This document shows, in pieces, positions 3,874-22,623 of a stretch of 64,000 nucleotides of DNA. Numbering within the stretch: the stretch's first letter is position 1; every line of letters begins with the position of its first letter. The notes beneath the pieces are model-generated. The model ran no database searches, had not been told where the DNA came from, and saw only the letters and a list, made by a program, of their open reading frames with translations. Source of the DNA: Brumimicrobium mesophilum (GTDB lineage: Bacteria > Bacteroidota > Bacteroidia > Flavobacteriales_D > Crocinitomicaceae); contig NZ_PVSS01000002.1 of NCBI RefSeq assembly GCF_003025005.1, positions 1 through 64,000 on the forward strand. The letters run 5' to 3'. The translations under genes were made by a program, and so were the position numbers.

Positions 3874-3960
3874 AATTAAGAATTGAGCAATTACGAATGA
3901 GTTTAAGTTCAAATGTATTTCATTACGAATCACTTTCAAAATTCTCAAATTTATCTTTTT

Positions 3961-4034
3961 CTTTTGGGGCTGCCCTATTCAATTCTTTAACCAAAATAGC
4001 TCCATTTAAAAAGCAAATACAAAGAATTGAATAG
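3961..4034 (+). pseudogene. Remnant of the 3' end of a gene like that at 21993-22274
   Basis: Read from 3960, this stretch encodes SFGAALFNSLTKIAPFKKQI and then QRIE and a stop, matching the last 24 residues of the 93-residue protein at 21993-22274. Six of 74 bases differ, four of five changed codons are non-synonymous, and similarity fades upstream of about 3945. It is a truncated duplicate carried on the repeat, not a functional gene. Confidence 0.7.
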
Positions 4035-4120
4035 GTCGGGTCATTCGCTATATCTTTTTATTTCCGCGAGTTTTCAACTCGTGATAATAAAAAGGATGCC
4101 GCTGCTACCCCTTAGCCGAG
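3961..4120. repeat. Long-hairpin composite repeat, copy 1
   Basis: This block aligns without gaps to 22201-22360, with about 13 differences in 160 bases (about 92% identity by eye). It holds a gene 3'-end remnant followed by an imperfect inverted repeat, 4051-4097: ATCTTTTTATT pairs with AATAAAAAGGAT around an inner CGAG/CTCG stem. It continues with the motif GCCGCTGCTACCCC. Confidence 0.85.
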
Positions 4121-4144
4121 ATTTAAGCTTGACAGAAAACTGTT

Positions 4145-4240
4145 CCCTCAAATTTCATTAATGAAATTTCCCTGCCATAGTACGGACGCTTTGCAAAGCG
4201 TCCATACAAGGCAACCGCTTTTTCGTTTGCGAAAAAGAAG
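4145..4240. repeat. Three-palindrome repeat, copy B
   Basis: Three palindromes follow one another: AAATTTCATTAATGAAATTT (4150-4169, perfect), GGACGCTTTGCAAAGCGTCC (4184-4203, perfect), and the hairpin CTTTTTCG-tttg-CGAAAAAG (4218-4237). The same order occurs at 5021-5110. Confidence 0.85.
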
Positions 4241-4309
4241 GAAAAGATTCCTCATACATCTTTTAATAACATTTTTTTCTTAAACATTATGAACTTCAAC
4301 CCAACCAAC

Positions 4310-4897
4310 CTATCCATTATTTTTTGGTTTTCCAACAATCACATATTTCACAAAATACTCATACAAATATATCAATCCAATTAAGCTGAAAATGTAGACA
4401 AATGCTAGAAAATAGATGCTTAAATTTTGACCCCATTCATCAGAGTTTGGTCCATACAACACCCTACCTAAACGAACGAAGGCAACCATCAAAATCGCTC
4501 CTGCTATTATAGTAAATAAAGTTTTCAAAGCGACAGAAAGTATGGAATAACGAAACAATTGATCTCTTTTGTATTGTTGGTAATTCATTTTCGAATGGGC
4601 TTGTGCCCTACTATTTCCTTTTCTCGTTCTACGGTTTACATCTTGCTGATATTTTTGCTTGACCCTTGGATTCGCTCGCTGCATACGTTGCATCTTAAGC
4701 AATCTGTCATAAGCCAAACGCGTTTTTCTATCAGACAAACAACTATATGCAACTTCAATTTCAATAAATTTATCTTTCGCGTTTTCCGATGAATTTAAAT
4801 CTGGATGGTATTGTTTGGCTAGTTTTCTGAAAGCTTTTTTTATTTCAGATGAATCTGCATTTTCCGATATTTCTAATGTTGTGTAGTATGTGGACAT
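4310..4897 (-). CDS. Membrane-anchored DnaJ-domain protein
   Basis: The first 65 or so residues form a J domain with the invariant HPD tripeptide (residues 31-33) between helices II and III, so it should stimulate an Hsp70 (DnaK) ATPase. A basic linker rich in Arg, Lys and Gln follows. The C-terminal half has two hydrophobic segments, one near TIIAGAILMVAFV and one near YFLAFVYIFSLIGLIYLY, indicating anchoring in the inner membrane with the J domain presumably cytoplasmic. It lacks the Gly/Phe and zinc-finger regions of true DnaJ, so it is a type III J protein with an unknown client. It stands alone, flanked by repeat-filled gaps. Confidence 0.85.
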   Translation of the reverse strand: MSTYYTTLEISENADSSEIKKAFRKLAKQYHPDLNSSENAKDKFIEIEVAYSCLSDRKTRLAYDRLLKMQRMQRANPRVKQKYQQDVNRRTRKGNSRAQAHSKMNYQQYKRDQLFRYSILSVALKTLFTIIAGAILMVAFVRLGRVLYGPNSDEWGQNLSIYFLAFVYIFSLIGLIYLYEYFVKYVIVGKPKNNG

Positions 4898-5264
4898 GAA
4901 ATAAATAATTCAAAATAACAAACCTACTAAATATTTCACTACCTAATTTCAATCAGGTTAAGAATTAACCGTCCATACGGACGGTTTTCAAACCGTCCCC
5001 AGCAAACCAACCTTTCCCTCAAATTTCATTAATGAAATTTCCCTGCCGTAGTACGGACGCTTTGCAAAGCGTCCGTACAAGGCAACCGCTTTTTCCTATG
5101 CGAAAACAAGGGAAATCTAAACTCCATCTTTAGATTGTATGCTACTTAATTCATTTTTTTTGGACGACTCAATTCTAGCCTTTTTTCATTCAATTATAAA
5201 ATTAGTCTTACTTAAAAATATTACTTTTACAACCCTTGAATAAAGAAAATATTGATATTCTTCT
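4898..5264. other. Gene-free interval filled by palindromic repeats
   Basis: Copy C of the palindrome family occupies 4969-5110. No gene is visible. The last 100 bases are AT-rich and presumably hold the promoter of the membrane-protein gene. Confidence 0.6.
4969..5110. repeat. Palindrome repeat, copy C, with an extra unit
   Basis: The near-palindrome GGACGGTTTTCAAACCGTCC (4979-4998) precedes AAATTTCATTAATGAAATTT (5021-5040) and a perfect 28-bp palindrome (5051-5078) whose core is GGACGCTTTGCAAAGCGTCC. A degenerate third hairpin (GCTTTTT...GCGAAAA) follows. It is nearly identical to copy B over the shared part. Confidence 0.85.
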
Positions 5265-7046
5265 TTGAAAGAATCCAAACTTTTAAATTCACTCCATAAA
5301 TTAAAACAATTGAGTTTGTTAAAAAATAAATTCATATCCCCATCTAATATTTGTCTGATTATAATTTCAGTATCAGCAATTTTGTTCTCAATTCACGGGG
5401 GATTAACGGATATGAATGGAAATAATCGAAACACTATTTCTAGTGATGGCCTTGGATATTATAACTATTTACCTTCTATCTTTATTCATGACGACTTTTC
5501 AGATAAGTTCGAAAATAGCACATTCATTTTACCTTTGAATGACAGTACAGCCTATAATAAATACTTTTCAGGTACTGCTGTACTCATTAGTCCTTTTTTT
5601 GCTGCAGGCCATTTATCAGCCTATCTTTTCGGATATGAACAGAATGGATTTTCTATTCCGTATCAAACTTCTGTCGCATTTGCAGGATTATTCTATCTAT
5701 TTCTAGGATTGCATTTTCTTCGGAAATTATTAAAGTCATATAATTTTTCAGAATTCTCTATTTCTGCAACATTACTTTTATTATTCTTTGGAACAAATTT
5801 GCTGTCATATAGCACTTTGAGTCCTTCTATGTCCCATGTTTACTCCTTTTCATTAATTTCAGTCGGACTTTATTTGGCAAGGAGTTATTGGGTTTCAAAT
5901 GAAAGTAAAACCAAAAATCTGATTGCTTTTAGCATTGTTTTAGCCCTGATTGTCTTGATTCGTCCAATTAATGGTTGCGTTCTATTCCTTTTCCCCTTTC
6001 TTTCAAACAATTACATTCAATGGAAAAATGAATGGAAATCAATCCTCGGCGATAGAAGCACTTATTTTTCTGCCATTATTTTTATTGCAATTCTGTTTGT
6101 TCAACCCTATTTGTGGTATTTACAAACTGGTCAATGGTTTATTTGGAGTTATGCTGGTGAAGGTTTTAACTTTTCGGAACCTAGAATCACAGATGTGCTC
6201 TTTAGTTTTAGAAAAGGTTGGTGGATTTATACTCCATTGATGATTATTTCTACAATTGGATTATTCTTCTGGTTCAAAAAGAATGTTTTTTTAGCAATTG
6301 GTCTTAGTTTCTTCGTTTTATTTTTCATTTATATAACGAGTAGTTGGTGGAATTGGTATTATGGATCCTCATTCGGACAACGACCTTTTATCGATATATA
6401 TGGAATTATGGCATTGGGCTTGGCTGTTCTTTTGGATCATTTCACTAATTGGAAAAAATATGTTTTGCTTTCCCTTGGTGTCATTTTTTCTGCTTTAAAC
6501 CTAGTCCAAACTTACCAATATGAAAATCAAATTTTGTCTCCAGATTTTATGACAAAAGAGAAATATGAATTTGTTTTCTTAGAAACAGACGAGTCTTTTA
6601 AAGACATTTTTGGTGGTTATTCTGATATTGAGCCTTTCAATGCAGAACTAAAATCAGTATATCATCATAAAGTTGAAAATTTCGATTGTAAAAATGTAGA
6701 ATATTGTGGTATTCCAAAGAAGAATATTGACACCTATGAAAGTCAAGGTTTGTGGTTAGAAGTGAATGTAAAATGGGAAACTTTTGAAAAACTTAGCCCA
6801 GATAGTGTTCTCTTGGTTGTTCAATTAGCAAATCAAGAAAAGAGTATTTCATATTTTACAGCAGGGTTAACACCAGTTCCTAGAAATAAAGCAAATTTAG
6901 TTGAGGATGAAAATTATACTTTCCACTTCAAAGAATACCGCGAAGATAATTGTGATGTATCTATTTTTATATGGAATAGATCTTTGTCAGACTTTAAAAT
7001 AAATTCAATCGACGCCGAAATTTCAACAATTAATTTCAATGATTAA
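5265..7046 (+). CDS. Polytopic membrane protein, GT-C-like, function unknown
   Basis: The 593-residue protein has a first membrane segment near residues 28-45 followed by a short polar loop containing ISSDGLGYYNYLPSIF, then about nine more hydrophobic segments to about residue 420, and a soluble C-terminal region of about 170 residues. This resembles the membrane part of GT-C glycosyltransferases or O-antigen-type integral membrane proteins, including an acidic first loop, but no decisive catalytic motif was found. The start is TTG. The first in-frame ATG lies after the first membrane segment and would delete it, so an upstream non-ATG start is more plausible. It is a single-gene unit. Confidence 0.65.
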   Translation: MKESKLLNSLHKLKQLSLLKNKFISPSNICLIIISVSAILFSIHGGLTDMNGNNRNTISSDGLGYYNYLPSIFIHDDFSDKFENSTFILPLNDSTAYNKYFSGTAVLISPFFAAGHLSAYLFGYEQNGFSIPYQTSVAFAGLFYLFLGLHFLRKLLKSYNFSEFSISATLLLLFFGTNLLSYSTLSPSMSHVYSFSLISVGLYLARSYWVSNESKTKNLIAFSIVLALIVLIRPINGCVLFLFPFLSNNYIQWKNEWKSILGDRSTYFSAIIFIAILFVQPYLWYLQTGQWFIWSYAGEGFNFSEPRITDVLFSFRKGWWIYTPLMIISTIGLFFWFKKNVFLAIGLSFFVLFFIYITSSWWNWYYGSSFGQRPFIDIYGIMALGLAVLLDHFTNWKKYVLLSLGVIFSALNLVQTYQYENQILSPDFMTKEKYEFVFLETDESFKDIFGGYSDIEPFNAELKSVYHHKVENFDCKNVEYCGIPKKNIDTYESQGLWLEVNVKWETFEKLSPDSVLLVVQLANQEKSISYFTAGLTPVPRNKANLVEDENYTFHFKEYREDNCDVSIFIWNRSLSDFKINSIDAEISTINFND

Positions 7047-7156
7047 CTCCTTGCGAAACTGTAGCGTAATTATATAGAAGAAAATCAAATTCAATCAATA
7101 ATTATTGATAAAAAACACTGTAATTGAATCTCATGTTTTTTAACTATTTTAGTAAC

Positions 7157-8158
7157 ATGAAAAAATTATCACTACTGATATTAGTTATTTTTGCATTCAC
7201 CTCTTGCAATAAAGAGGGAGTTAAAATTGATGATTCCATTTCTTTTTCAGATGTAAAAACTCAATTCTACTCTGATATTATTGTTATTATAGAATATGAT
7301 GTAACCGTAGAAGGAAATCCTATTTTTCGAGAAAGTGGAACAATTATTACCGTTGATCCTGAAGTTTCATATTTTAATCATAAGGTTAAGAATGAAGAGG
7401 AGTTTAAAGAAAACGTGAGCATAAATTTGAGTGTAGAGGCTGAAACGCAATATTATGTAAGACCTTATGTTATTACTTTTGAAGATACTGTTTATGGAGA
7501 TGTCCAATCCTTTATGTCTGGCTCATATTTTAAAGATGGAAATGGCGTTTCTGATGCTTCAGGAAATAATTATGAGACTATAATTCTTGGAAATCAAGAA
7601 TGGATGGCTGAAAATTTGAAAAGTTCTCAATACTGTAATGGAGATTCAATTCCATTCTCGGTGAATGACACCATCTATTTTGAACGCTATAACGAAGCAC
7701 AGTCAGTGTATTATGACTATGACACAAGCAACTTCAACACTTATGGCATGATGTACTCCGGTTATGCCATTTTAGATAGTAGAAATATCTGCCCATGTGG
7801 TTGGAGTGTGCCAACAAGCTATGATTGGGATGAATTATTTACGTATTTAGGGAATAACAAGTTTGTTGGAGGAAAAATGAAATCAACGGGTGTCTTAGAA
7901 GACGGAACTGGCTTATGGGAAAGTCCAAATGGTTTAGCTAATAATCTATCTGGATTTACAGCTCTCCCTGGAGGATACCAAGTAAGTCCTAGTTCTTTTT
8001 ATGGAAAAAATTCCTACGGAAACTTCACTTTTATAAACGCAAATGAATCACAACCCTTTGTACAAATGATTTCAATTGATTATATACGTGGCCAAATACA
8101 TGTTTTAAATAATAATAACAGCAGCGGAATGTATGTAAGGTGTATAAAAGATGCTTAA
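7157..8158 (+). CDS. FISUMP-domain lipoprotein
   Basis: The start at 7157 (MKKLSLLILVIFAF) gives a clean lipoprotein signal with lipobox FTSC. An upstream in-frame TTG at 7124 would add an unlikely lead. The C-terminal two thirds show the marks of the Fibrobacter succinogenes major paralogous (FISUMP) domain: a start DASGNNYETI, then ILGNQEWMAENLK, the mid segment NICPCGWSVPTSYDWDEL, and a late Gly-rich FTALPGGYQ. The N-terminal portion is probably a beta-sandwich (fibronectin-like). The protein should be a surface or periplasmic lipoprotein. FISUMP function is poorly known, with suggested roles in adhesion or carbohydrate binding. Confidence 0.85.
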   Translation: MKKLSLLILVIFAFTSCNKEGVKIDDSISFSDVKTQFYSDIIVIIEYDVTVEGNPIFRESGTIITVDPEVSYFNHKVKNEEEFKENVSINLSVEAETQYYVRPYVITFEDTVYGDVQSFMSGSYFKDGNGVSDASGNNYETIILGNQEWMAENLKSSQYCNGDSIPFSVNDTIYFERYNEAQSVYYDYDTSNFNTYGMMYSGYAILDSRNICPCGWSVPTSYDWDELFTYLGNNKFVGGKMKSTGVLEDGTGLWESPNGLANNLSGFTALPGGYQVSPSSFYGKNSYGNFTFINANESQPFVQMISIDYIRGQIHVLNNNNSSGMYVRCIKDA

Positions 8159-8237
8159 CTGGCATGAATAATTGAAATCGACATAACGCAAATATAATTT
8201 AGTTATACTATTTAATTAATGATTTTAGTCAAAAGAA

Positions 8238-11200
8238 TTATAGCTTAATCAGTTTAGCTGTTTTACTTTCATCTTCGCCATATAAATTGATAAAGTAAAC
8301 ACCTTTTCTTTGACCAGTTAAATCTATCTTTAAAAAGTTCTGATCTAGGACTTTTCCTTCTTGAATTAATTGACCCATGGCGTTGACAATTTTATAGTTT
8401 TCAAAATCAAACTCCATATCCTGAAAATTAATTTCGAATGTAGATGTGAAAGGGTTAGGATATACATTTAAGTTTAGGTTTTCATCAACATTTCTAACAT
8501 CCATTGGTCGAATTGTTTGTGGAGTTAAAACCCAATCATCAATTTCAAATTTTAATACAGAAAGAACTGGTGAATATCTCCAGGTATCGGAAATTGGATA
8601 TTCACTATCTGCCGAAAAACTTGGACCAGTTAAAACAAAAAAGCCATCCTTAACATCAAAAGATGCCTCCCAAGCTCTTTGATTGATCAACTTCTTCCCT
8701 TTATATTCTCCATCTAAGCTATACCGTTGAATCATGGTGTTTTTAGTTTCAAAATCTTCACCCATAAAGTAGATGTAGTTTTCGTCTTTCTTTACTTGCA
8801 GTGGTACCATTCCTTGGTTGTCCGTTGTAACATTTGCCCTCAATACTCTATTTTGTTTTTGATCATAAATCAAGGTATATTCTGAGACTTCGAAGCACTC
8901 ATTCCCTATCTCATTTTGAAATTCATATATATCAGTCTGAATTACACCACTTGAAAGTCCTTTTACTAATACTTTTCCGTCATTCAGTTGTGTTGCCACA
9001 CCATTATAGTGCAGGCTGTTTCCCGAGATTACCAACCTTTGTTTTTCATTACCATCAAAATCATAAACAATTAATACACCTCCCCAACTATCAGTGGCAC
9101 ATGACCAACTCCTATTTTGAGAACAATAAACAAGAATTTCCTTGGTTTCTTTATTCAGTTCTATACTTCTAATATCACCAATAAAATCACTCCAATTGGT
9201 TAAAACATTTTTGGCCCATATAAAATTACCTTCATCATCATATTTTGCTAAAAAACTTTGATGTGTCCAATCACTTAACAGTATAGTGTCGTTTAAATCA
9301 AGTTCATAATCATTGTATTTTCCAGACATATAAAAATTGTCTTCACCATCAACCTCAACTTTAAAAAATTCAGGGTCATCTGTAAATGTTGTTTTATACA
9401 AGATTTTAATATCTGTGACGTCACCAGTTTCACTGTCTAGTTTTGCCCAATACCTGTTAGATTCACTTAGCGCTAGGGTATCAGAATCAAAATAACCTTC
9501 GTTGTATAAAACTCCATAAACATGAACATTTCCTTCACTATCCAATGAAAACTGATCATAATCAGAAAAGAGTTTGTAATAACTTCCTATTCCTTTCATC
9601 CACTGAAGTTCGCCATACTTGTCATATTTGGCATAAACATCTGATATTCTATTTTTAACACGTGATTTGCTCGCTAAATCATAATAAATATTATCCTCAC
9701 GCAAACCTCCGTATTGATTATTTGTAAAACTAACATAGGTTGCCCCTGCATTATCAATAATTGTGTTTTGAGATCGTAAATTGTCTGCATATTCCACACA
9801 TACTCTACCCTCATGATCAAATCCAATTTCTGTGTACCACGTTTCTGAATCAAAAGATCTGTTGGTGGGTTGAGGGTTTACAACAGCGTTCCATTTCCAC
9901 CTATAAACTTTACTTAATTCTGATTGTGAATTTTGAGTTATGTAATAAATATAATCATCATAAGGAAGTATCCTTACCCTTGAAGAGTTGAATTCAGGTG
10001 CTTTACTCAATGATACCAGGGAATCAGGTCTTACTTCATAGAGGTAAACACTTTCATCATTACCATTACTTAAAAAAGCATATGATTTATTATCATGTTC
10101 GAAAAACGCTGTGTTATAACTCGGAGTGCCTCCTATACTGCAATATCGAAAAGGTACGCTAGAAAATTCCCCTTCATTTAAATCTTTGATCAATTCTATT
10201 GAATCATTCTGATTTACAACACCTAACTCTATTCCTAAATCGTGGTCAACAATACTATAAATTTTATTCCGTCCCGACTCAAGTGAATAGGAATGATTTT
10301 TATTTAACAACTCACTTTTCAGCTTCATCTCAGCCCCAATAATCAAACTATCATTTACAAATTCTCCTTTAAAAAAACCACCTGAATAACCTTCTGTTCT
10401 AACGTTACACTCATTATTTGAGGTAGGATGAATCTCTTGAATATTATTTGCAGTAATTGTTGAAGTCTCAAATGTATTTCTGTTAATCCTTACGACATGA
10501 ACTGAGTCTGAGTTAAAATTATTTCGTACGTACCAATTTAAAGTGTCACTCGTTGGTACTAAATAGGGGTCATATACATACTGATAGCTATCATTTGCCA
10601 AAATGGTTTTAACTCCATTATGATCCAATAAAATCACATTACCAATCGAAGGAGTAAAGTGTTCTATAAACAAAAGTCCTTCTTCAAAGACATTAATGAA
10701 CCTCAAATCTCCAGTACTTTGATATAATGTATCTTGTTCTTGAGTATGGGTATTAAATTTAAAAAGTATTTCCCTGTATTCTTTTTCAACTTCGTAAAAT
10801 AAGTTTTCGTTGTGTTGATAAAAACTCCTTAGATAATCTGGATTATCATGTGATAGGATTTGACTTACCTCCTGATCTGCATTGCACATGTGCAACTCTA
10901 AGACATCAGGGTGATCATCAATGACGAAGAAATATAAATTTTCATTTATTTCATAAAATTTAGAAGAAACCGATTCATAACCGAAATCTTTAACCAATTT
11001 CGGAACACGTTCATCTTCATTTAACACATAGAGTTGTCTGCGATAATTTCTCGATGCGTAATACAAATTAGATTGCATCTTTACTACAGATACATTTGAA
11101 TAACTATCGTAAAAATCACCTCGTTTATCATAGGGTATTTCTCCCATGAACTCAAATTGTGAAAATAGGGAGCTCGAGAATAAAAACAATGTACAAATCA

Positions 11201-11243
11201 AAGTTGCACATTGTTGTAAATAGATTTTTTTCAGAGTAGTCAT
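8238..11243 (-). CDS. Large secreted protein with a T9SS type A sorting domain
   Basis: The 1001-residue product begins with a signal peptide (hydrophobic core near LICTLFLFSSSLFS, cleavage near SQF). It ends with a T9SS type A C-terminal domain: NVYPNPFTSTFEINF, then a strand with NAMGQLIQEG, GVYFINLYG and a basic end KLIKL. It should cross the outer membrane by the type IX system. The body has many repeated strand motifs with Asp/Gly turns such as AKYDDEGNFIWAKN, suggesting beta-propeller (SBBP-like) blades. No enzymatic motif was recognised. It lies alone, transcribed toward the FISUMP gene. Confidence 0.85.
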   Translation of the reverse strand: MTTLKKIYLQQCATLICTLFLFSSSLFSQFEFMGEIPYDKRGDFYDSYSNVSVVKMQSNLYYASRNYRRQLYVLNEDERVPKLVKDFGYESVSSKFYEINENLYFFVIDDHPDVLELHMCNADQEVSQILSHDNPDYLRSFYQHNENLFYEVEKEYREILFKFNTHTQEQDTLYQSTGDLRFINVFEEGLLFIEHFTPSIGNVILLDHNGVKTILANDSYQYVYDPYLVPTSDTLNWYVRNNFNSDSVHVVRINRNTFETSTITANNIQEIHPTSNNECNVRTEGYSGGFFKGEFVNDSLIIGAEMKLKSELLNKNHSYSLESGRNKIYSIVDHDLGIELGVVNQNDSIELIKDLNEGEFSSVPFRYCSIGGTPSYNTAFFEHDNKSYAFLSNGNDESVYLYEVRPDSLVSLSKAPEFNSSRVRILPYDDYIYYITQNSQSELSKVYRWKWNAVVNPQPTNRSFDSETWYTEIGFDHEGRVCVEYADNLRSQNTIIDNAGATYVSFTNNQYGGLREDNIYYDLASKSRVKNRISDVYAKYDKYGELQWMKGIGSYYKLFSDYDQFSLDSEGNVHVYGVLYNEGYFDSDTLALSESNRYWAKLDSETGDVTDIKILYKTTFTDDPEFFKVEVDGEDNFYMSGKYNDYELDLNDTILLSDWTHQSFLAKYDDEGNFIWAKNVLTNWSDFIGDIRSIELNKETKEILVYCSQNRSWSCATDSWGGVLIVYDFDGNEKQRLVISGNSLHYNGVATQLNDGKVLVKGLSSGVIQTDIYEFQNEIGNECFEVSEYTLIYDQKQNRVLRANVTTDNQGMVPLQVKKDENYIYFMGEDFETKNTMIQRYSLDGEYKGKKLINQRAWEASFDVKDGFFVLTGPSFSADSEYPISDTWRYSPVLSVLKFEIDDWVLTPQTIRPMDVRNVDENLNLNVYPNPFTSTFEINFQDMEFDFENYKIVNAMGQLIQEGKVLDQNFLKIDLTGQRKGVYFINLYGEDESKTAKLIKL

Positions 11244-11399
11244 TTTATAAAAATATAGAATTTAATTTTTTAAAACTATAAATCTTAAATTAAAACTAAA
11301 ATCAGTTAAAAAGCTCAACAACTATTTGAACTATGAACCAGGTATAATCTTAACAATCTCCCCCGCACCATTCCTATCAAATCCGCTATATTTACATCC

Positions 11400-12410
11400 A
11401 TGGAATACAAAAAGATAATCATCTCAGAATTTGGTGGTCCTGAAGTTTTAAAAGTAGTTACCGAACCAAAACTTCCCGAACCCAAAGAAGGCCAAGTTCG
11501 TGTAAAGGTTTCTGTTACAAGCGCTGCTTTTACTGACACACTCATTCGACGAGGAATTTATTTAGGAATCAAAAACAAACCTCCATTTTCTCCTGGATAT
11601 GATCTTATTGGAACAGTTGATAAACTCGGAGAAGGAGTAACAGATTTCCAAGTCGGTCAAAAAATTGCTGAGCTGACGGTAATTGGAGCATACACAGAAT
11701 ATATTTGCTTGGATGTAAAAACTCTTGTTCCTGTCCCAGATAATTTAGAGGATTCAGAGAGTGTGAGCTTGGTACTCTCCTATATAACGGCCTACCAAAT
11801 GCTTCATCGTTCCGCAAAAGTCAAAAATGGTCAAACGATACTAATTCATGCTTGCTCCGGTGCCGTTGGAATTGCCATACTTCAACTTGGACAATTGATG
11901 AACCTAAAAATGTATGGTACAGCATCCAAATCAAAGCACGATTTTATCAAACAATATGGCGCTATTCCTATCGATTATAAAAACGAAGACTTCCTTGAAG
12001 TTTTAAAAAAGGAAGAACCAAATGGTATCGATGCTGTTTTTGATCCAATTGGAGGAAGTTATTTTCCGCGTTCCTTAAAAGTACTCAAGAAAAAAGGAAC
12101 TTTGGTTGGTTTTGGTTATCAGAATTCTGCCAATGGAAAAGATGGAAATGTTGTGCTGGACTTCTTTAAAATTCTATTTTGGAACATACTTCCCTGGAAA
12201 CCTTCTGCTAAATTTTACATCATTAGTGAATTGCACAAAAAACATCCAGATTGGTTTAAAGAAGATATGTCTCAACTTTTAAATCTATTGAAAGATGGAA
12301 AAATCAAACCAGAAATAGGATTAACGCTCCCATTAAGTGAAGCTGTTAAGGCCCATAAACTGGTTGAAGAAGGTGAAATCAAAGGAAAGATTGTTTTGAA
12401 AGTGGGGTAA
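11400..12410 (+). CDS. Zinc-independent MDR oxidoreductase (quinone oxidoreductase-like)
   Basis: The 336-residue protein follows the medium-chain dehydrogenase/reductase plan. An N-terminal GroES-like domain has GPEVLKV and the SPGYDLIGTVDKLGEGV strand-turn. A Rossmann domain has the nucleotide-binding segment ILIHACSGAVGIAILQL. The catalytic zinc ligands of alcohol dehydrogenases are absent, pointing to the NADPH:quinone oxidoreductase / enoyl-reductase subfamily. A TATATTTA box (11387-11394) lies immediately before the ATG, implying a near-leaderless mRNA. The substrate is unknown. Confidence 0.85.
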   Translation: MEYKKIIISEFGGPEVLKVVTEPKLPEPKEGQVRVKVSVTSAAFTDTLIRRGIYLGIKNKPPFSPGYDLIGTVDKLGEGVTDFQVGQKIAELTVIGAYTEYICLDVKTLVPVPDNLEDSESVSLVLSYITAYQMLHRSAKVKNGQTILIHACSGAVGIAILQLGQLMNLKMYGTASKSKHDFIKQYGAIPIDYKNEDFLEVLKKEEPNGIDAVFDPIGGSYFPRSLKVLKKKGTLVGFGYQNSANGKDGNVVLDFFKILFWNILPWKPSAKFYIISELHKKHPDWFKEDMSQLLNLLKDGKIKPEIGLTLPLSEAVKAHKLVEEGEIKGKIVLKVG

Positions 12411-12430
12411 TGCAACCAAACACATCGAAC

Positions 12431-12602
12431 AGAAGTTTTGTAAAACATCCCTTTTGCAATGACATTTTCGGATACAAAATAGAAAAAAGAACCAAGGCTT
12501 CATGGTCTTGTTTTTTTTGCTGCATTTTTTTTTCGATTCATGAAATCAAACATATTAGACCAAAATCAGCCTTTCCTCAAATTTCAATAAGAAAATTGCC
12601 TT
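12431..12602. repeat. Degenerate palindrome/terminator repeat
   Basis: AGAAGTTTTGTAAAACATCC (12431-12450) is a decayed version of the GGACGTTTTGTAAAACGTCC palindrome. The stretch 12489-12602 resembles 13597-13712 (roughly 80% by eye), including the AACCAAGGCTT...TTTTTTTT terminator-like part, CGATTCAT..AATCAAAC and CCTCAAATTTCA. Confidence 0.65.
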
Positions 12603-12769
12603 ATGTACATTCCCGTGTTTTGACCTTTTTGCATTTAAAAAAAAGTGTTAGTAAAAATTTTTAACCCTAACAGGCACTATTACAATCTGGTAATCAAACC
12701 TGTACGATAAATACTGGGATTCTAGGCTTGTTTTTCAATTCTCAAGGGACATTTTCAAGAGAAAATTAT

Positions 12770-12777
12770 TATGTTTG
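12770..12777 (+). promoter_or_regulatory. Predicted -7 promoter element for the outer-membrane protein gene
   Basis: TATGTTTG fits TAnnTTTG. It lies about 155 bp before the ATG at 12932, so the transcript would have a long leader. Confidence 0.4.
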
Positions 12778-12931
12778 CGCGCATCAAACCTAGGATATCT
12801 ACTTAATTATTTATCCTACTAAAAACTACTATAATGAACAAAACAAGAGCTCCAGTACCCAATTCATATCTTTAAATAAACTTTTTAAAACGTGGAAATA
12901 TTTCCCAAAACAAATACAAAAAAATATAAAA

Positions 12932-13573
12932 ATGAATTCATTAAAACTAATTGCCACAGCCCTATTTATTACAATTTTATCTTCTCAAGCCTACTCTCAA
13001 CTAAGTTTGGGTGGACAGGTTTCTTACCTAAATTTATTTGGAGGAACAGGTCTAAAAAGCTTTGGTGTCGGGGTAAAAGGAGATTATGCTATAGACGACA
13101 AAACAGTGCTTTCAGGTGGATTAAACTTTTATTTGCCTTCAACGTTAACAGAAGGAGCATATGCAAATGCTTTCAGCAACCAAACAAGTCCTAGTCAAAT
13201 AGTGATTGATACTGAAAATAAAATTTCATTCATTCATTTATATTTTGGCGGAAAAAGATATTTCGTTGGTGACTACGAAGATGATTTTGGATTCTATGGA
13301 TTGGCTGAAATAGGTATCCTACTTGCACCTACAAAAACTACTCTTGAGGAATTTGATGAATCAAAATACTACTCAACTGTAGAAGAAGGAAGAGAAACCT
13401 TATCCAACTTCACTATAAATTTTGGTGCTGGAGTTGAAAAAGAAATCGATTTTGGATATATCTTCTTAGATTTGAAATTAAATCTACCTGCAAATCAAGC
13501 GAACGGTCAAACAGTGGCTGTGGAAATTCCATTTTCAGCTAGTATCAATGCTGGTGTGAGAATTCCACTATAA
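12932..13573 (+). CDS. Outer-membrane beta-barrel protein, porin-like
   Basis: The 213-residue product has a clear signal peptide (KLIATALFITILSSQAYS, cleavage before QLSLGG). Alternating amphipathic strands with Gly and aromatic residues follow (QVSYLNLFGGTGLKSFGVGV, FIHLYFGGKRYFVG, FGFYGLAEIGILL), ending in a strand near VRIPL. This is the pattern of small outer-membrane beta-barrels in Bacteroidota, often annotated as porin family. It is monocistronic: a strong terminator follows at once and a -7 element precedes it. The role is unknown. Confidence 0.8.
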   Translation: MNSLKLIATALFITILSSQAYSQLSLGGQVSYLNLFGGTGLKSFGVGVKGDYAIDDKTVLSGGLNFYLPSTLTEGAYANAFSNQTSPSQIVIDTENKISFIHLYFGGKRYFVGDYEDDFGFYGLAEIGILLAPTKTTLEEFDESKYYSTVEEGRETLSNFTINFGAGVEKEIDFGYIFLDLKLNLPANQANGQTVAVEIPFSASINAGVRIPL

Positions 13574-13596
13574 CATTCTTATTCAATTACTCAAGA

Positions 13597-13780
13597 AAAC
13601 CAAGGCTTCGAGTCTTGGTTTTTTTTGCTTCAAATTCTTATCGATTCATAGAATCAAACCTTTAATACCAAAATCAGCTTTTCCTCAAATTTCATTTATG
13701 AAATTTCCCCACCCATCGCACGGAATTTTTGCAAAGCGTCCACTCCAATTCAATCGCTTTATCACTTGCGAAAAAGAAAA
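13597..13780. repeat. Terminator plus palindrome repeat, copy D
   Basis: A terminator-like hairpin (13598-13626) leads into CCTCAAATTTCATTTATGAAATTTCCCC, a half-decayed GGAATTTTTGCAAAGCGTCC (13722-13741) and CGCTTTatcacttGCGAAAAAG. It has the same order as copies B and C and matches 12489-12602 at its left end. Confidence 0.75.
13598..13626 (+). terminator. Rho-independent terminator after the outer-membrane protein gene
   Basis: The 10-bp stem AACCAAGGCT/AGTCTTGGTT (one G-U pair) with loop TCG is followed by a run of eight T. Confidence 0.85.
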
Positions 13781-13846
13781 AAAATATTTCAAATTCTTCC
13801 TTTTCATTTAAAAATCCCCTTACCTTTAAAATCATAAATTATTCTC

Positions 13847-14893
13847 TTGAAAACATCATTAAAATACCTATCAATATTCGTTGTTGCAATTATTACTGCA
13901 AGCTGCTCTAAGAAAACTGAAGTTACTCGAGGTTTCTATGCTTGGCAATCTCATTACGATGTTGATGAAGTAAAAAATCAAAAATTATTTCAATCTTTTG
14001 CAGGTGAACGTCTTTATTTAAAGATGTTTGAAGTCACTTATGATGAAAAGTCTGGTGCTATTCCTGTTTCTAAAACGAACACGAAATTACACAACGAATT
14101 TATGTCTAACGCTGAATTGGTACCTTGTGTATTTATTGAAAATGAGGTGTTGAGTAAATTAAGTTCTATTCAACTCAATGAGTTGGCAGATAATATTATT
14201 TTCCTGGTTAATAAATATGTTGATAATGAAGTGTTTCAATATTCAGCAAAGAATAATACTTATACAGAAATTCAATTGGATTGCGATTGGTCAAAAGCCA
14301 ATCAAAACAGCTATTTCGAATTGATTAAGCTCATAAAGGAAAAATCTCAAAAGACTGTCTCATGTACAATGCGCTTGTATCCTTACAAATACAGAGATGA
14401 AATGGGAACACCGCCTGTCGACCGAATCATGTTGCTGTGCTATAATTTATTGAATCCAACGAAAAACACAGATAAAAACAGTATACTAGAAATCGAAGAA
14501 TTAAAGAAATACATTGATTTTGACACGCCATATCCTGTTCCTGTGGATGTCGCGCTTCCAGCCTACTCTTCTGGATATCGCTTCGATCAACAACGTTTTG
14601 CAGGAATTTTTCATGCTGTTCCCGAAAATTTCGAGGAAATTGCTGTTGCCACAAAGGATAACTTGCATTTCATCGTAAAAGAAGACACTTCAATTAATCA
14701 TAAATATTTCCGGAAAGGAGAAAAAATCAAGATTGAACGAATAAGCGAATCCGTTTTGTTAGAAGCCGCAGAGTTAATCTCAAATCATATTAATCAGTCC
14801 GAAATGAATGTGGTAATTTACCATTTGGACCATGAAGAAATATATCAATACAAACATGAAATACTGGATAGCGTCTTTTCTATTTTTAACTAG
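13847..14893 (+). CDS. Lipoprotein of unknown function, possibly TIM-barrel-like
   Basis: The 348-residue product has a lipoprotein signal (IFVVAIITASC, Cys about residue 20) and starts at TTG, just after a TACCTTTA -7-like box (13821-13828). Motifs include GFYAWQSHYDVDE near the mature N-terminus, EIQLDCDWSKANQNSYFELI and RIMLLCYNL. The pattern of acidic residues at strand ends recalls glycoside-hydrolase-like TIM barrels, but that is inference and no family is confirmed. Its last 38 bases overlap the following exported protein, so the two are almost certainly translated from one mRNA and probably work together. Confidence 0.7.
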   Translation: MKTSLKYLSIFVVAIITASCSKKTEVTRGFYAWQSHYDVDEVKNQKLFQSFAGERLYLKMFEVTYDEKSGAIPVSKTNTKLHNEFMSNAELVPCVFIENEVLSKLSSIQLNELADNIIFLVNKYVDNEVFQYSAKNNTYTEIQLDCDWSKANQNSYFELIKLIKEKSQKTVSCTMRLYPYKYRDEMGTPPVDRIMLLCYNLLNPTKNTDKNSILEIEELKKYIDFDTPYPVPVDVALPAYSSGYRFDQQRFAGIFHAVPENFEEIAVATKDNLHFIVKEDTSINHKYFRKGEKIKIERISESVLLEAAELISNHINQSEMNVVIYHLDHEEIYQYKHEILDSVFSIFN

Positions 14894-17078
14894 TTTCTCT
14901 ATTTCATTTGCCTGCGGACCTTGGTATCCTTATGGCGAAGAAACACGTTTCTCATTACTCTATCCAGGGTGGTTTGACAATGGAGGACTTTCTGAATTTT
15001 ACTATTCTGCAGACTATATTGCGGAGGTTTATGAGTTCTCTGCTGAGAATGATAAGAATGTTTTAGACTGGTGCGAAACGACGGACAATAATGTAAGTAA
15101 AGAATCTGTTTTTCATGTACTTTACGGCATGAGTATTAAAGAAATACATGAAGCTAAAAACGAACCATTTATCAATGCGTTAAAATACAATGGGAAGGAA
15201 GCCTATATCGATTATCTTGTATTTGCGAAAACATATTCTCACCTCAATGATGTCACAAATGACTATTGGGAAAGAGATGAAACCTACCATGACTCATTAA
15301 GAAATGTTGCAGTAGAATTAGCCATTCAAAAAGCCGAATCCACAACGGATGAAATACTCAAAAGAAGATATGCTTTTCTTGCTTTGAGGTTCCAATTTTA
15401 TAGCGGAAATGAAGCTGAAGTTGTTGAATTGTATCAGCACTATTTTTATGGAAAATCGGAATTAGCAATCGATCGTTGGGCGGAATATCACCGTTTACAT
15501 TATGAAAATAACTCGGTAGAAAGAAATTTCCGTGTTGCTCAATTGTTTGCTTCTGTTCATTCAAAACGACGTGGACTTTGGAATTTATTTAATAAAAACG
15601 TTCCTAAATCTCAAATCCTCGAATTGGCCAAAACAAATCAAGAAAAAGCCAATATTCACGCGATGTACATGTTAAGAGAAAGAGGGAAATCACTGGAGAA
15701 CATCAAAACGATTTATCAATTAGATCCCAAAAATGAACTCTTACCTTTCTTTGTGATTCGTGAAGTGAATAAATTGGAAAACTGGGTTTTAGGTCCTGAA
15801 ATTACCGCGTATGAACCTGTAATTCGTTCGCATGAAGTTAACGAAGAAATTGCATCTGGCATAATGAAAGAACGCATCGTTGAAGATCGTTTGTATGCAA
15901 AAAAGTTGCTGAATTGGATTACAAATGATGCCATGGAACTTAATGCTGACGTAAAATCTGCAAGTATCGCAATATTGTCACTTGTGGTGAATCAGCCAAA
16001 AATTGGATTGGAACATCTAGAAAGTCAAACCTTCTCCTCTCCTGAACTCTCAAATTGGAAAAAGAATATTTCAATTTTGTTGAATGTCAAGAATTCGAAA
16101 AATCCAAAATTGGAAGATTTCGAAATTGATACTTTGTTGATCACTGATTATCGTTTTAAAAATGCATTGATTTTTGCCATCGGAAGAACATTAGAGTTTA
16201 GCGGAAATATCACCGAATCGATGTTGCTCTTCAGTCATATCAATCACAACAACAAATATTACAATTCATTTACTTGGTCAGAATCGAATGGCTTGGCAGC
16301 CTACAATGTTGACTTTTACTATGATGGTTTCGATTATTTCGACGCCAATTATTCTGCTGCTGAAATTGAAAAAGGCTGGAATAAAATTGAAAAGCAGGGA
16401 AATTCTTTCTTAACAGAACCAATTTTGAATGACAAATTGAACTGGTTAGACCTGATAGGAACAAAGTATTTACGAGAAGAAAATCTAAAGAAATCAATTG
16501 CCATTTGGGAGGAAATTCCAGTTGAATATTGGTCATCGGAAGCACGTAACTACGATGATTATTTACAAGCCAATCCATTTTATGCCGACTTCTACTCTAG
16601 TCACGAGAAAACAAAAGGCGACACGATTTCATATACGAAACTAGAAATCGCCCAAGAATTACAAAAGCGAATCAAACAAAGCAAAAAGTTGAAAGGAAAT
16701 GCAAGAGCGAAAGTTTTGTTCGAAATAGCGAATTGCTACTACAACATGACGCAATACGGAAATTCCTGGATGATGAAACGTTACTATTGGTCAATACACA
16801 ATTACAACACCATTTACGCCGACAACGTTGATTTCAACACTTGTGTAAACGCCAAAAAATACTACATGCTCGCAAAACAAGCCACGCAATCAAGCGACTT
16901 TCAAGCCCTTTGCCTCCGCATGGCCGGAAAATGTGAATCTTTGAGCGCTCGTTTTAACAAAAACTATTACGAAAACAATAAATATTACAATCAGCTGAAA
17001 AAGGAATTCCCTAATGATCAGGAAGAATTGTTGACGAATTGCTTTTCTTTTGAGAGGTATTGGGAGTCTTTAAAATAA
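14856..17078 (+). CDS. Large exported protein, helical-repeat-like, function unknown
   Basis: The start at 14856 (MKYWIASFLFLTSFSISFAC) gives a clean signal peptide. A second in-frame ATG at 14832 would add eight residues before it. The protein (about 740 residues) begins CGPWYPYGEE after the signal. The body is rich in helix-forming stretches with recurrent Leu/Ala/Tyr patterns (LALRFQFYSGNEAEVVELYQ, VLFEIANCYYNMTQYGNSWM), suggestive of TPR-like alpha-solenoid repeats. The Cys right after the signal could be lipidated, although FAC is a weak lipobox. It is translationally coupled to the preceding lipoprotein. No catalytic motif was found. Confidence 0.75.
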   Translation: MKYWIASFLFLTSFSISFACGPWYPYGEETRFSLLYPGWFDNGGLSEFYYSADYIAEVYEFSAENDKNVLDWCETTDNNVSKESVFHVLYGMSIKEIHEAKNEPFINALKYNGKEAYIDYLVFAKTYSHLNDVTNDYWERDETYHDSLRNVAVELAIQKAESTTDEILKRRYAFLALRFQFYSGNEAEVVELYQHYFYGKSELAIDRWAEYHRLHYENNSVERNFRVAQLFASVHSKRRGLWNLFNKNVPKSQILELAKTNQEKANIHAMYMLRERGKSLENIKTIYQLDPKNELLPFFVIREVNKLENWVLGPEITAYEPVIRSHEVNEEIASGIMKERIVEDRLYAKKLLNWITNDAMELNADVKSASIAILSLVVNQPKIGLEHLESQTFSSPELSNWKKNISILLNVKNSKNPKLEDFEIDTLLITDYRFKNALIFAIGRTLEFSGNITESMLLFSHINHNNKYYNSFTWSESNGLAAYNVDFYYDGFDYFDANYSAAEIEKGWNKIEKQGNSFLTEPILNDKLNWLDLIGTKYLREENLKKSIAIWEEIPVEYWSSEARNYDDYLQANPFYADFYSSHEKTKGDTISYTKLEIAQELQKRIKQSKKLKGNARAKVLFEIANCYYNMTQYGNSWMMKRYYWSIHNYNTIYADNVDFNTCVNAKKYYMLAKQATQSSDFQALCLRMAGKCESLSARFNKNYYENNKYYNQLKKEFPNDQEELLTNCFSFERYWESLK

Positions 17079-18246: not shown

Positions 18247-19515
18247 ATGAAGTTGAAAGAAAAAATATCGTTAGAAGAAGTTCGTGATCAATCATTTAAT
18301 GATAAATTGAGGGAATCTTCCGAATACGGTAAAGCAGTATTTACTCATTATTTACATAACTATAAAAACGGATTTTCAAAAATTTATAAAAAGGAAGCGG
18401 TTTCACACGTAAAAATTGCATTAGAGTATAAATATCCTGAAGAAAACTTCTCTTCAGAAGTTGCTGAAGAAGCTTTACAATATATGCTTTTCGATTTTAA
18501 AGAAGATATTCCATTCCCCAAACCAAAAAAGCCAAAGTTTAAATTTATTGACCTTTTTGCAGGTATTGGCGGTTTTCGGTTAGCACTGCAAAATCTACAA
18601 GGAAAGTGTGTTTATACCAGTGAATGGGATAAATATTCAAAGAAAACTTACGAAGCTAATTTTGGAGAAATTCCATTTGGAGATATCACTAAGCCAGAGA
18701 CAAAAAACTTTATTCCAGATAACTTTGATGTACTATGCGCAGGATTTCCATGTCAAGCTTTTTCGATAGCAGGAAGACGTGGCGGATTTGAGGATACAAG
18801 AGGAACGTTGTTTTTCGATGTAGCAGAAATAATAAAGAAAAAACAACCAAAAGCTATTTTCCTCGAAAATGTCAAAGGACTTCGAAGTCACGACAAAGGA
18901 AAGACTTTAGCTACTATTTTAAATGTGCTAAGGGAAGACTTAAACTATTTTGTTCCTGAACCGCAGGTTATAAATGCAAAGGAGTTCGGTGTTCCTCAAA
19001 ACAGAGAAAGAATTTTTATTGTTGGCTTTAGGAAAGATTTAGGGATTTCTGATTTTGCATATCCTAAACCGACAAATAAAAAAGCTGTCTTAGAAGACAT
19101 TTTAGAGAAGAATGAAGTTTCTGTAAAATACTATTTATCGACAACTTATGTACAAACTTTAAAAGACCACAGGTCAAGACACGAAAGTAAAGGCAATGGT
19201 TTCGGTTATGAAATCATTCCAAATGATGGAACTGCAAATGCGGTAGTTTGTGGAGGAATGGGTCGAGAAAGAAATTTAGTCCTGGATGATAGATTAACGA
19301 ACTTTGTTCCCATAACCCACATTAAAGGTACAGTCAATCGAGAAGGAATAAGAAAAATGACACCACGAGAATGGGCAAGGCTTCAAGGTTTTCCTGATGA
19401 ATTCAAAATTGTAGTTTCAGACGCGCAAGCGTATAAACAATTCGGAAATTCAGTAGCAGTTCCAGCAATTCAAGCAACAGCAAAAAAAATCATAGAAAAA
19501 CTTAACATCATATGA
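18247..19515 (+). CDS. DNA (cytosine-5)-methyltransferase of a type II R-M system
   Basis: The 422-residue enzyme transfers methyl from SAM to C5 of cytosine. Motif I is FIDLFAGIGGFR (residues 100-111), the catalytic PCQ loop of motif IV is AGFPCQAFS (Cys169), motif VI is ENV (207-209), motif VIII is QNRERIF (251-257), and motif X QFGNSVAVPA is near the C-terminus. The order I-IV-VI-VIII-X is canonical. An N-terminal extension of about 95 residues precedes motif I. The target-recognition region is between motifs VIII and IX. The stop overlaps the start of the endonuclease gene (ATGA), so modification and restriction are translationally coupled. Pairing with an HpaII-family nuclease suggests a CCGG-like target, to be tested. 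Confidence 0.93.
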   Translation: MKLKEKISLEEVRDQSFNDKLRESSEYGKAVFTHYLHNYKNGFSKIYKKEAVSHVKIALEYKYPEENFSSEVAEEALQYMLFDFKEDIPFPKPKKPKFKFIDLFAGIGGFRLALQNLQGKCVYTSEWDKYSKKTYEANFGEIPFGDITKPETKNFIPDNFDVLCAGFPCQAFSIAGRRGGFEDTRGTLFFDVAEIIKKKQPKAIFLENVKGLRSHDKGKTLATILNVLREDLNYFVPEPQVINAKEFGVPQNRERIFIVGFRKDLGISDFAYPKPTNKKAVLEDILEKNEVSVKYYLSTTYVQTLKDHRSRHESKGNGFGYEIIPNDGTANAVVCGGMGRERNLVLDDRLTNFVPITHIKGTVNREGIRKMTPREWARLQGFPDEFKIVVSDAQAYKQFGNSVAVPAIQATAKKIIEKLNII

Positions 19516-20591
19516 TTACAGGAAATAAAGGAGAATGGAGCGAGATATATGCTTTATTTAAATTATTAGGAGATAAACAGTTATTTCTTGGTAACAAAGA
19601 CATAGAAAGATTAGAAGGTATAGTATATCCCATTATTAAAATACTTCGCACTGAGAATAATGGAAATTTTGAATACTCAATTCAAGATGAAATAATTTTA
19701 ATTTCAGGAAATGAATTAGTATTAAAAATTCCAATTTCAGATTTTAAGAGTAAGGCAATTTTTCTTCTTAATGCGATTAAAGAAAATAAAGAAAGAACGT
19801 TTTCTATTCCTGAAATAGAGGAATTCATGCAATCTATTAATTGTATTTCTCTAAAAGCAGGTTCGTCAGCAAAAACGGATATTACAATTGTGGTCCACGA
19901 CCAAAGAACAAATCAACAACCAACTCTTGGATTTAGTATAAAATCTCAACTTGGAAGTCCTTCCACTCTCCTTAATGCAGGTAAGACAACAAACTTCATT
20001 TTTAAAATTGTTGGAACGGACTTAACTAAAAATGACATTGATCAAATCAATAAGATTGATTCCAGAAGCAAGATAATGGATAGAATCGTGCAAATAAAAA
20101 ACAAAGGAGGAGAGTTTGTTTTTGTGAAAACCGAAAGGCAAATATTCTCAAATAATCTTGTTTTAATAGATAGTTTACTTCCAGAGATTTTATCTCAAAT
20201 AGTTTTTGATTTTTATTCAAGTGAATATTCACACTTGACAGATCTAGTCCACAAAACAGCTATCAAAAATCCATTGAACTTTGATATCGAAAATGAACAC
20301 AAGTTTTATGAATACAAAATTAAAAGATTCTTAACTGATGTTGCACTTGGAATGATGCCTTCAAAAGTTTGGACAGGACAATATGACGCAACGGGAGGAT
20401 ATTTAATCGTAAAAGAAAATGGGGATGTATTATGCTATCATATTTACAACAGAAATGAATTTGATGATTACTTGTTAAACAATACAAAACTTGATACGGC
20501 AAGTTCATCCCGACACGGTTTTGGGGAAATTTATGAAGCAAACGGAGATTTATACTTTAATCTGAATTTGCAAATTAGATTTACTAAATAA
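19512..20591 (+). CDS. HpaII-family type II restriction endonuclease
   Basis: The 359-residue protein has the N-terminal signature NKGEWSEIYALFKLL and YYPIIKILR-like YPIIKILRTE that I recognise from R.HpaII relatives. A likely PD-(D/E)xK-type active site is visible as KTDITI (Asp123) and, one strand later, GFSIKSQLGS (Lys144). HpaII itself cleaves CCGG. Family membership is from remembered sequence character, not a search, and specificity is inferred. The gene begins inside the methyltransferase stop codon (ATGA, 19512-19515), the classic layout of a two-gene R-M operon. It appears intact, with no internal stop or frameshift. Confidence 0.82.
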   Translation: MITGNKGEWSEIYALFKLLGDKQLFLGNKDIERLEGIVYPIIKILRTENNGNFEYSIQDEIILISGNELVLKIPISDFKSKAIFLLNAIKENKERTFSIPEIEEFMQSINCISLKAGSSAKTDITIVVHDQRTNQQPTLGFSIKSQLGSPSTLLNAGKTTNFIFKIVGTDLTKNDIDQINKIDSRSKIMDRIVQIKNKGGEFVFVKTERQIFSNNLVLIDSLLPEILSQIVFDFYSSEYSHLTDLVHKTAIKNPLNFDIENEHKFYEYKIKRFLTDVALGMMPSKVWTGQYDATGGYLIVKENGDVLCYHIYNRNEFDDYLLNNTKLDTASSSRHGFGEIYEANGDLYFNLNLQIRFTK

Positions 20592-21992: not shown

Positions 21993-22274
21993 ATGGAAAT
22001 AAAATTCGCAAATAATAATTCCTTCACTTTTGAAGAAGTCATAGAAGCAAAAAACAATGGCGGATCATTTGTCACTTATCAATGGATTATTCCTCTACCT
22101 CTATTTTATCCTGTGCGTAGGTTGTCGAAAGTTTACTTTATTCCAAAAGGTGGAAACCAAGCCAAGTATGCGAAAAAATTCAATATAATTTCATTAATTT
22201 CTTTTGGGGCTGCCCTTTTCAATTCTTTAATTAAAATAACTCCATTTATAAAGCGAATACAAAGAATTGAATAG
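21993..22274 (+). CDS. Small protein of unknown function whose 3' end is a repeat
   Basis: This 93-residue protein has a polar N-terminus (EIKFANNNSFTFEEVIEAKN), a central strand-rich part (YQWIIPLPLFYPVRRLSKVYFIP) and a hydrophobic C-terminus (ISLISFGAALFNSLIKI). Its last 24 codons and the 86 bp after the stop form a 160-bp block that recurs at 3961-4120, where only the tail of the gene is left. The full frame, upstream sequence and ATG suggest this copy is the intact one. No function can be given. Confidence 0.55.
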   Translation: MEIKFANNNSFTFEEVIEAKNNGGSFVTYQWIIPLPLFYPVRRLSKVYFIPKGGNQAKYAKKFNIISLISFGAALFNSLIKITPFIKRIQRIE

Positions 22275-22360
22275 GTCGGGTCATTCGCTGTATCTTTTTG
22301 TTACCGCGAGTTTTCAACGCGTGATAATAAAAAGGTTGCCGCTGCTACCCCTCAGCCGAA
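22201..22360. repeat. Long-hairpin composite repeat, copy 2
   Basis: This is the partner of 3961-4120 with the same order: gene 3' end, ATCTTTTTGTT...AATAAAAAGGTT long hairpin (22291-22337) and GCCGCTGCTACCCC. Differences are equally frequent in the coding part (6 of 74) and non-coding part (7 of 86). Confidence 0.85.
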
Positions 22361-22623
22361 ATCATACGTTAAAGTGAGCATTTTTCCTCAAATTCCATTT
22401 ATGAAATTACCCTAAGCATGCTAAGGACGCTTTGCTGAGATATGGATGGTTTGCAAACCAATTGTACGGACGGTTTGCAAACCGTCCTCAGCAAACCTAC
22501 TTATCCTTGCAACGACTTTCTCACATTTATAATAAGAAGAAAAATATACTTGAGTTTATAGTTTATTTTTCACAATATTTGAAACACCCCTTCGTTTTCT
22601 AAGAAATTACTAAAACATAAAAA
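22275..22623. other. Gene-free interval filled by repeats
   Basis: The interval contains the second half of the long-hairpin repeat and palindrome copy E (22381-22487). Beyond that only AT-rich sequence is seen before the next ATG. Confidence 0.6.
22381..22500. repeat. Palindrome repeat, copy E, rearranged
   Basis: A decayed CCTCAAATTCCATTTATGAA palindrome is followed by half a GGACGCTTTG unit (22424-22433), then GGTTTGCAAACC (22448-22459) and the perfect GGACGGTTTGCAAACCGTCC (22468-22487), ending CAGCAAACCTAC. The extra unit and the CAGCAAACC tail are shared with copy C near 4979-5008. Confidence 0.75.

Follow-up and report, generated by a model that had tools for sequence, protein, structure and literature searches.

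The block that is repeated in the window (the whole 64,000-nucleotide stretch of Brumimicrobium mesophilum DNA analysed here) is a full-length Flavo-1 element, a three-way junction composed of a closing helix (P1), a P4/P2 arm, and a P3 arm. We consider it probable (about 0.7) that Flavo-1 is maintained as a folded element and gives rise, on occasion, to a precise copy of itself, a reading that leaves the choice between RNA and DNA undecided, and that the palindromes beside the two window copies are independent of it. Flavo-1 is a common orphan structured-RNA family without an assigned function, and its public model lacks the P3 arm and the closing helix. Its full anatomy, copies that occupy corresponding sites in several species, a gene truncation, and almost purely Watson-Crick compensation together provide an improved model for searches and a picture that can be tested. 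Judged by the searched papers and the Rfam model, the full-length three-way junction appears to be new, and no priority is claimed for P1 or P3; a name search of papers citing RF01705, chiefly outside subscription journals, yielded no description of the second arm.

The Repeated Block Is a Flavo-1 Element

The earlier note had described two similar blocks in which long hairpins adjoin palindromic repeats, and this description was borne out. Positions 3958-4194 and 22198-22435 are 85% identical over 239 bp (E = 2e-72), and in the best-defined part, the two 152-nt elements listed in Table 1 (both on the minus strand), 140 of 152 positions (92%) are identical. Each block contains two long hairpins, followed by palindromes. 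A cmscan search matched copy 1 to Flavo-1 (Rfam RF01705) on the minus strand at 4030-4122 with 42.7 bits, just above the gathering score of 42, and this match was limited to the P2 half of the element. In contrast, copy 2 (35.5 bits) and several other copies scored under the Rfam threshold. The whole genome (3.88 Mb, 89 contigs) contained nine Flavo-1 matches at E <= 0.001, four of them above threshold, these genome-wide counts being taken from searches that scored a limited number of candidates at the first pass. The block is thus a multi-copy repeat, as had been proposed, and its further copies adjoin unrelated genes instead of being confined to the 3' ends of one gene family.

The MFE fold of copy 1 is the three-way junction (z = -5.0), and none of 200 shuffled sequences folded as well. 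Copy 2 is partly decayed: its fold is weaker (z = -2.6), and its core motif CAUCC has become CAACC.

Table 1. Positions of the Flavo-1 copies, the palindromic repeats, and the truncated gene in the window.
Feature	Position	Strand	Remarks
Flavo-1 copy 1, 152 nt	3966-4117	-	P1, P4, and variable arms P2 and P3; extended model 71 bits, E = 3.5e-13
P3 hairpin, copy 1	3974-4035	-	15-bp perfect arms, 3974-3988/4021-4035
P2 hairpin, copy 1	4054-4094	-	Portion modelled by Rfam; arms 4054-4072/4076-4094
R1, REP-like repeat	4143-4245	+	AAATTTCATT/AATGAAATTT, GTACGGACGCTTTGCAAAGCGTCC, CTTTTTCG/CGAAAAAG; orthologous array in B. glaciale
R2, palindromic repeat without Flavo-1	5013-5115	+	93% identical to R1
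R3, palindromic repeat without Flavo-1	13676-13785	+	
Truncated gene, first 69 codons	21993-22199	+	221-238 aa in relatives
24 codons and TAG stop from Flavo-1	22200-22274	+	3' edge and P3 of the element
Flavo-1 copy 2, 152 nt	22206-22357	-	Extended model 67 bits, E = 2.4e-12, end to end
R4, palindromic repeat beside copy 2	22381-22495	+	

The Full-Length Element Is a Three-Way Junction

An alignment of 51 copies from seven species showed that the element continues past the 76 positions of the Rfam model. The model describes one stem; the full element has the same P4/P2 arm and belongs to the same lineage (Flavobacteriales), but it adds the P3 arm and the 5-bp helix P1, which closes both arms. 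Full-length elements measure approximately 83-214 nt; the core is conserved, and the two arms vary in length and sequence. In the Rfam sense, the 5' part consists of P1 (5 nt), A, GGG, (A/G)TAG.A, the P2 base, GGCATCC, and the variable arm P2, after which come GATA.A, the opposite strand of the P2 base (P2 base'), GGAT., CCC, GACC, the variable arm P3, GG, P1' (5 nt), CC, and an A-rich stretch. The P1 helix occurred as GGCTT/AAGCC, GCATT/AATGC, GCGTG/CACGC, GCGTT/AACGC, GGCTG/CAGCC, GGGTG/CACCC, GCGAA/TTCGC, GGGTA/TACCC, and GCGTA/TACGC.

Pairing was assessed on cores that had been excised by sequence anchors (GGCATCC, GATA.A, and 3' G[GA]..NNNNN-CC-A) without the use of complementarity; the anchors for P1 were the sequence motifs beside it, and three copies lacking a clear anchor were excluded from the core set. 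Across 10 core pairs in 38 distinct copies, 96.6% of the pairs were standard, compared with 77.5% after shuffling of the 3' letters and 25-53% when the partner was slid; copies within the genus are related, so these shuffle counts are not probabilities. The covariation score of the core was 0.516 (0.176 for the control), with 75 double-sided changes. Consistent with this, RNAalifold recovered P1, P4, P2, and P3 unaided from 19 full-length copies.

The alignment of these 19 copies was used to build an extended covariance model (labelled R1, and distinct from the palindrome array R1 of Table 1). With this model, 56 elements were found in 7 of the 10 genomes of the genus, compared with 50 found by Rfam, and they included some that were absent from the Rfam list; the sequences from which the model was built match it by construction. 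Among 31 loci from other genera of the family, which were excluded from model building, it gave 28 end-to-end matches. Covariation of the P4/P2 stem was confirmed (GGG/CCC and AGG/CCU; GC/GC, AC/GU, and GU/AC at the P2 base). In the copies examined from the genome of another genus with 30 matches (G053), both P1 and P4 changed in pairs (for example CGGTT/AACCG, GCG/CGC, and GTG/CAC).

Within the core, the A or G that follows GGG co-varies with the G or A that precedes CCC (GGGA..GCCC and GGGG..ACCC). This pattern of letters suggests that the two positions beside GGG/CCC may form a conserved non-canonical G-A contact.

Copy 2 Truncates a Gene

The open reading frame at 21993-22274, which the earlier note had regarded as an intact gene whose 3' end is carried by the repeated block, proved to be a truncated one. 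It encodes 93 aa, and its homologues match residues 1-69/70 and then extend to 221-238 aa. Similarity to the Brumimicrobium glaciale gene ends at 22196-22198, which is 8-10 bases before the first base of P1. Residues 70-93 match other Flavo-1 copies and no other homologue, and a whole-genome search did not find the missing part of the gene (aa 70-221). The last 24 codons and the stop thus come from the element, and it is the gene that is broken. The homologues are full length without the element, and the gene is whole in B. glaciale and three other genomes. In B. glaciale, it is followed by genes of 133 aa and 315 aa and then by a relative of the window gene at 22624-23532. Where B. glaciale has the 133-aa and 315-aa genes, the window has the element and the palindromes.

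The supposed gene tail is the P3 hairpin of the element. Whatever gene lies nearby, every full-length Flavo-1 copy of the genus carries its own version of this hairpin together with the GGGC..GCCC box. The homologues and the Flavo-1 copies beside unrelated genes rule out a gene-tail origin of the repeat. A frame that continues the gene is open in both copies, as a duplication of the 3' end of one gene family would predict; such a duplication is nevertheless extremely improbable, given that the homologues have a different C-terminus and that the hairpin and box also occur in Flavo-1 copies adjoining unrelated genes. The proposal that the part common to both copies is not under selection for protein was upheld. 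The locus represents an annotation trap, in which a truncated gene and a repeat together mimicked an intact gene and a gene-derived repeat.

Copy 1 Is Old and Copy 2 Is Derived

Copy 1 is an old element that is orthologous in B. glaciale IC156 (genome G002) and in a third species (genome G003). In these two species and in the window genome, it lies 3' of a gene for a FAD-dependent oxidoreductase (Pfam DAO), and the orthology in both was established by the flanking genes; the oxidoreductase gene occurs without Flavo-1 in three other species. The P3 half is identical at 65 of 70 positions between the window and B. glaciale, and in the orthologues of both G002 and G003 a CTCTGAC..GTCAGAG stem stands in place of the entire P2 arm. 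Most of the other Flavo-1 sites of the genome are common to at least one further species. Orthologous elements are well conserved, and the neighbouring intergenic DNA can hardly be aligned. That the element outlasts its flanks at sites common to several species argues for maintenance rather than decay, and we infer from this that selection keeps the Flavo-1 fold.

The P2 arms of the seven species fall into a few recurring types (TTTTTATTACCGCGAG.., CTCTGAC..GTCAGAG, and TTTTTTGAAAAAAAA), and orthologous copies differ in type. Going by the sequences of the arms, it is as if the P2 arm had been exchanged between copies.

Copy 2 is derived, because the gene that it interrupts is whole in B. glaciale and in the three other genomes. 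Outside the element, identity between the two window copies falls to the chance level beyond approximately 5-8 bp. The identity inside the element, the chance-level spacer, and the similarity of R4 to R3 (see below) indicate that the duplicated unit was Flavo-1 together with approximately 8 bp at its 3' edge and approximately 5 bp at its 5' edge. Copies 1 and 2 are thus a case of an element-precise copy at a new site, and other Flavo-1 pairs also have non-homologous flanks. The gene truncation is proof that a Flavo-1 copy can arise at a new place, which appears to be a new observation. We further infer that this unit was copied by an element-specific route and not by a chance break. A target-site duplication is unreadable at copy 2, where the far side is missing as part of a loss of about 2 kb compared with B. 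glaciale.

The number of Flavo-1 copies ranges from 0 to 15 within the genus. Most copies are not near-identical, indicating that there has been no recent burst. A recent burst was also considered for the 30 copies of G053 and was rejected, as the 20 copies examined are diverse.

The Palindromes Form a Separate Family

The palindromes are a separate REP-like family that is independent of Flavo-1. About a dozen genomic sites carry them, fewer than is typical of REP families. The arrays beside copies 1 and 2 are alike in the first ~53 bp only and otherwise differ in make-up. R3 is continuous with the flank that adjoins the copy-1 array in B. glaciale, and R4 is a mosaic: its head is most similar to R3, and its tail to the unit on the left of R2. 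Like REP/BIME sequences associated with a RAYT (PMC2817692, PMC3733652), these palindromes are short, dispersed, and partly arrayed; unlike them, they are present at only about a dozen sites and carry CGTC inside the stem. Inspection by eye recognised no unpaired GTAG or CGTC tag at the foot of the palindrome stems.

The earlier note had further proposed that hairpin and palindromes spread together as one composite unit. The join of the long hairpin to the palindromes after a short spacer is present at both copies as described, in the same order and orientation and with the same spacing of approximately 25 nt, and it is also found at the copy-1 site in B. glaciale. Flavo-1 and an array could accordingly have been co-duplicated from copy 1 to copy 2, the spacer having diverged later. 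However, the two copies have no common spacer: only 10 of 24 spacer positions are identical (shuffled mean 7.1, P about 0.13), against 18 of 24 between copy 1 and the B. glaciale orthologue despite their earlier split. The head of R4 is closer to R3 (28/30) than to R1 (25/30), and the genome of the third species has Flavo-1 at the copy-1 site without the array. Moreover, arrays and Flavo-1 lie mostly at separate sites, since palindromes accompany 2 of the ~10 Flavo-1 copies in the genome and Flavo-1 accompanies 2 of the ~12 palindrome sites. Joint spreading is thus quite improbable. Under the favoured reading, in which the palindromes are independent, the equal spacing and orientation are a coincidence, and this counts against that reading.

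Compared with B. glaciale, the gene blocks at 4143-17061 are reordered, and a palindrome array (R1, R2, or R3) is present at each junction. In B. glaciale, the counterparts of the sequences left of 4122 and right of 13784 meet at a single array. The rearrangement looks like a repeat-associated one, which may have arisen by recombination between palindrome arrays.

Mobility and the Nature of the Folded Molecule

A search for the parent transposase that had been suggested for the repeat identified Y1 transposases with different palindromes at their flanks. Among 20 Y1_Tnp loci of the genus with 1.5 kb flanks, no RAYT flanked by palindromes of the R1-R4 type was found; the loci had other palindromes or none within this distance. 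The set includes three of the four matches from the window genome and excludes the fourth (C34:283824) and lower-ranked matches of the relatives. Likewise, no transposase linked to Flavo-1 was found within the Y1 family. The Y1 (RAYT-like) genes at L157, L160, L161, L166, and L167 have palindromes of their own, for example AGCCGTTGAAACGGCT and GCGGGATGAATCCCGC, which are apparent REP families.

Similar to REPIN and MITE sequences, Flavo-1 is short, non-coding, dispersed, and hairpin-forming, and copy 2 disrupts a gene; in contrast to them, its copies are diverse and, apart from the 5-bp P1, lack terminal inverted repeats. A non-autonomous transposable element of the REP or MITE kind, moved as folded single-stranded DNA by a transposase acting in trans, would account for the dispersed copies with non-homologous flanks, the precise unit at copy 2 with its truncated gene, and the range of copy numbers within one genus and in one relative. 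It is less readily reconciled with elements that are old and diverse and that show neither a flanking transposase, terminal repeats, nor a visible target-site duplication, nor with RAYTs that bear other palindromes, and we regard it as rather unlikely. A different possibility, which also falls short of even odds although it is slightly the better of the two, is that Flavo-1 is simply a cis element or the gene of a non-coding RNA, with duplicates that arose by ordinary recombination and no mobility of its own. Weinberg et al. (2010, PMC2864571) filed Flavo-1 as a probable RNA, and such a role would agree with the strand-specific core, in which unpaired letters are conserved, with the mostly stable orthologous sites, and with gene contexts that are more often divergent than convergent. 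These contexts were 18 divergent, 25 same-strand, and 5 convergent (from crude ORF calls with orthologues uncollapsed), a mixed result for orientation to genes as a test of cis-regulation. In Flavobacterium psychrophilum, however, Flavo-1 matches lie sense or antisense to transcribed regions and many are untranscribed (PMC9723704), data that are equivocal on expression as an RNA. The boundaries of copy 2, which are those of the element itself, also speak against a plain RNA, and so does the near absence of G-U pairs: these made up 4 of 380 Flavo-1 core cells compared with 14 of 182 in the tRNA acceptor stems of the same genome, a comparison that, the sequences being related, is an indication and not a test. 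Because there are almost no G-U pairs, the folding may matter at least partly in DNA.

The reading that we prefer, a maintained folded element with occasional precise copying and independent palindromes, would explain the window as follows. Copy 1 would be an old, maintained element downstream of the FAD-dependent oxidoreductase gene. Copy 2 would be a younger duplicate of the precise unit; it sits within a gene that relatives keep whole, ends the frame after 24 element codons, and is now decaying. The palindromes would have built up beside each copy as an independent REP-like repeat, and their positions would mark the breakpoints of rearrangement. A bolder version, which we advance tentatively and consider unlikely as a whole, is that Flavobacteriales harbour Flavo-1 as a small mobile DNA element, recognised by way of its folded three-way junction (P1/P4-P2/P3) and copied precisely, as a unit; that its arms are exchangeable; and that selection on folded DNA, and not on a transcript, accounts for the strict Watson-Crick covariation.

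Neighbouring Sequences

The sequence TTAACGCCCGGCTTAGGG, with which a few Flavo-1 copies start, resembles part of a Vibrio attC site. An identity with integron attC sites is considered unlikely, as the copies bearing TTAACGCCCGGCTTAGGG have no matching half at the other end.

The window segment 17230-21188 has no DNA similarity to the syntenic region of B. glaciale. Genes for a C-5 cytosine methylase (18247-19515) and for an HpaII-type restriction endonuclease (19512-20591) mark it as a probable restriction-modification island.

A separate repeat, AGGGATTACTCGTG..GGAACTC(G/A)TGAAT, lies immediately against several Flavo-1 copies on their 5' side. It was located at G000:C56:160523-160635, G004:C1:631981-632048, G003:C5:92641-92712, G004:C23:272349-272420, and G002:C1:2969-3040, and in two of the Flavo-1 copies at these sites it has taken the place of the 5' half of P1 and P4.
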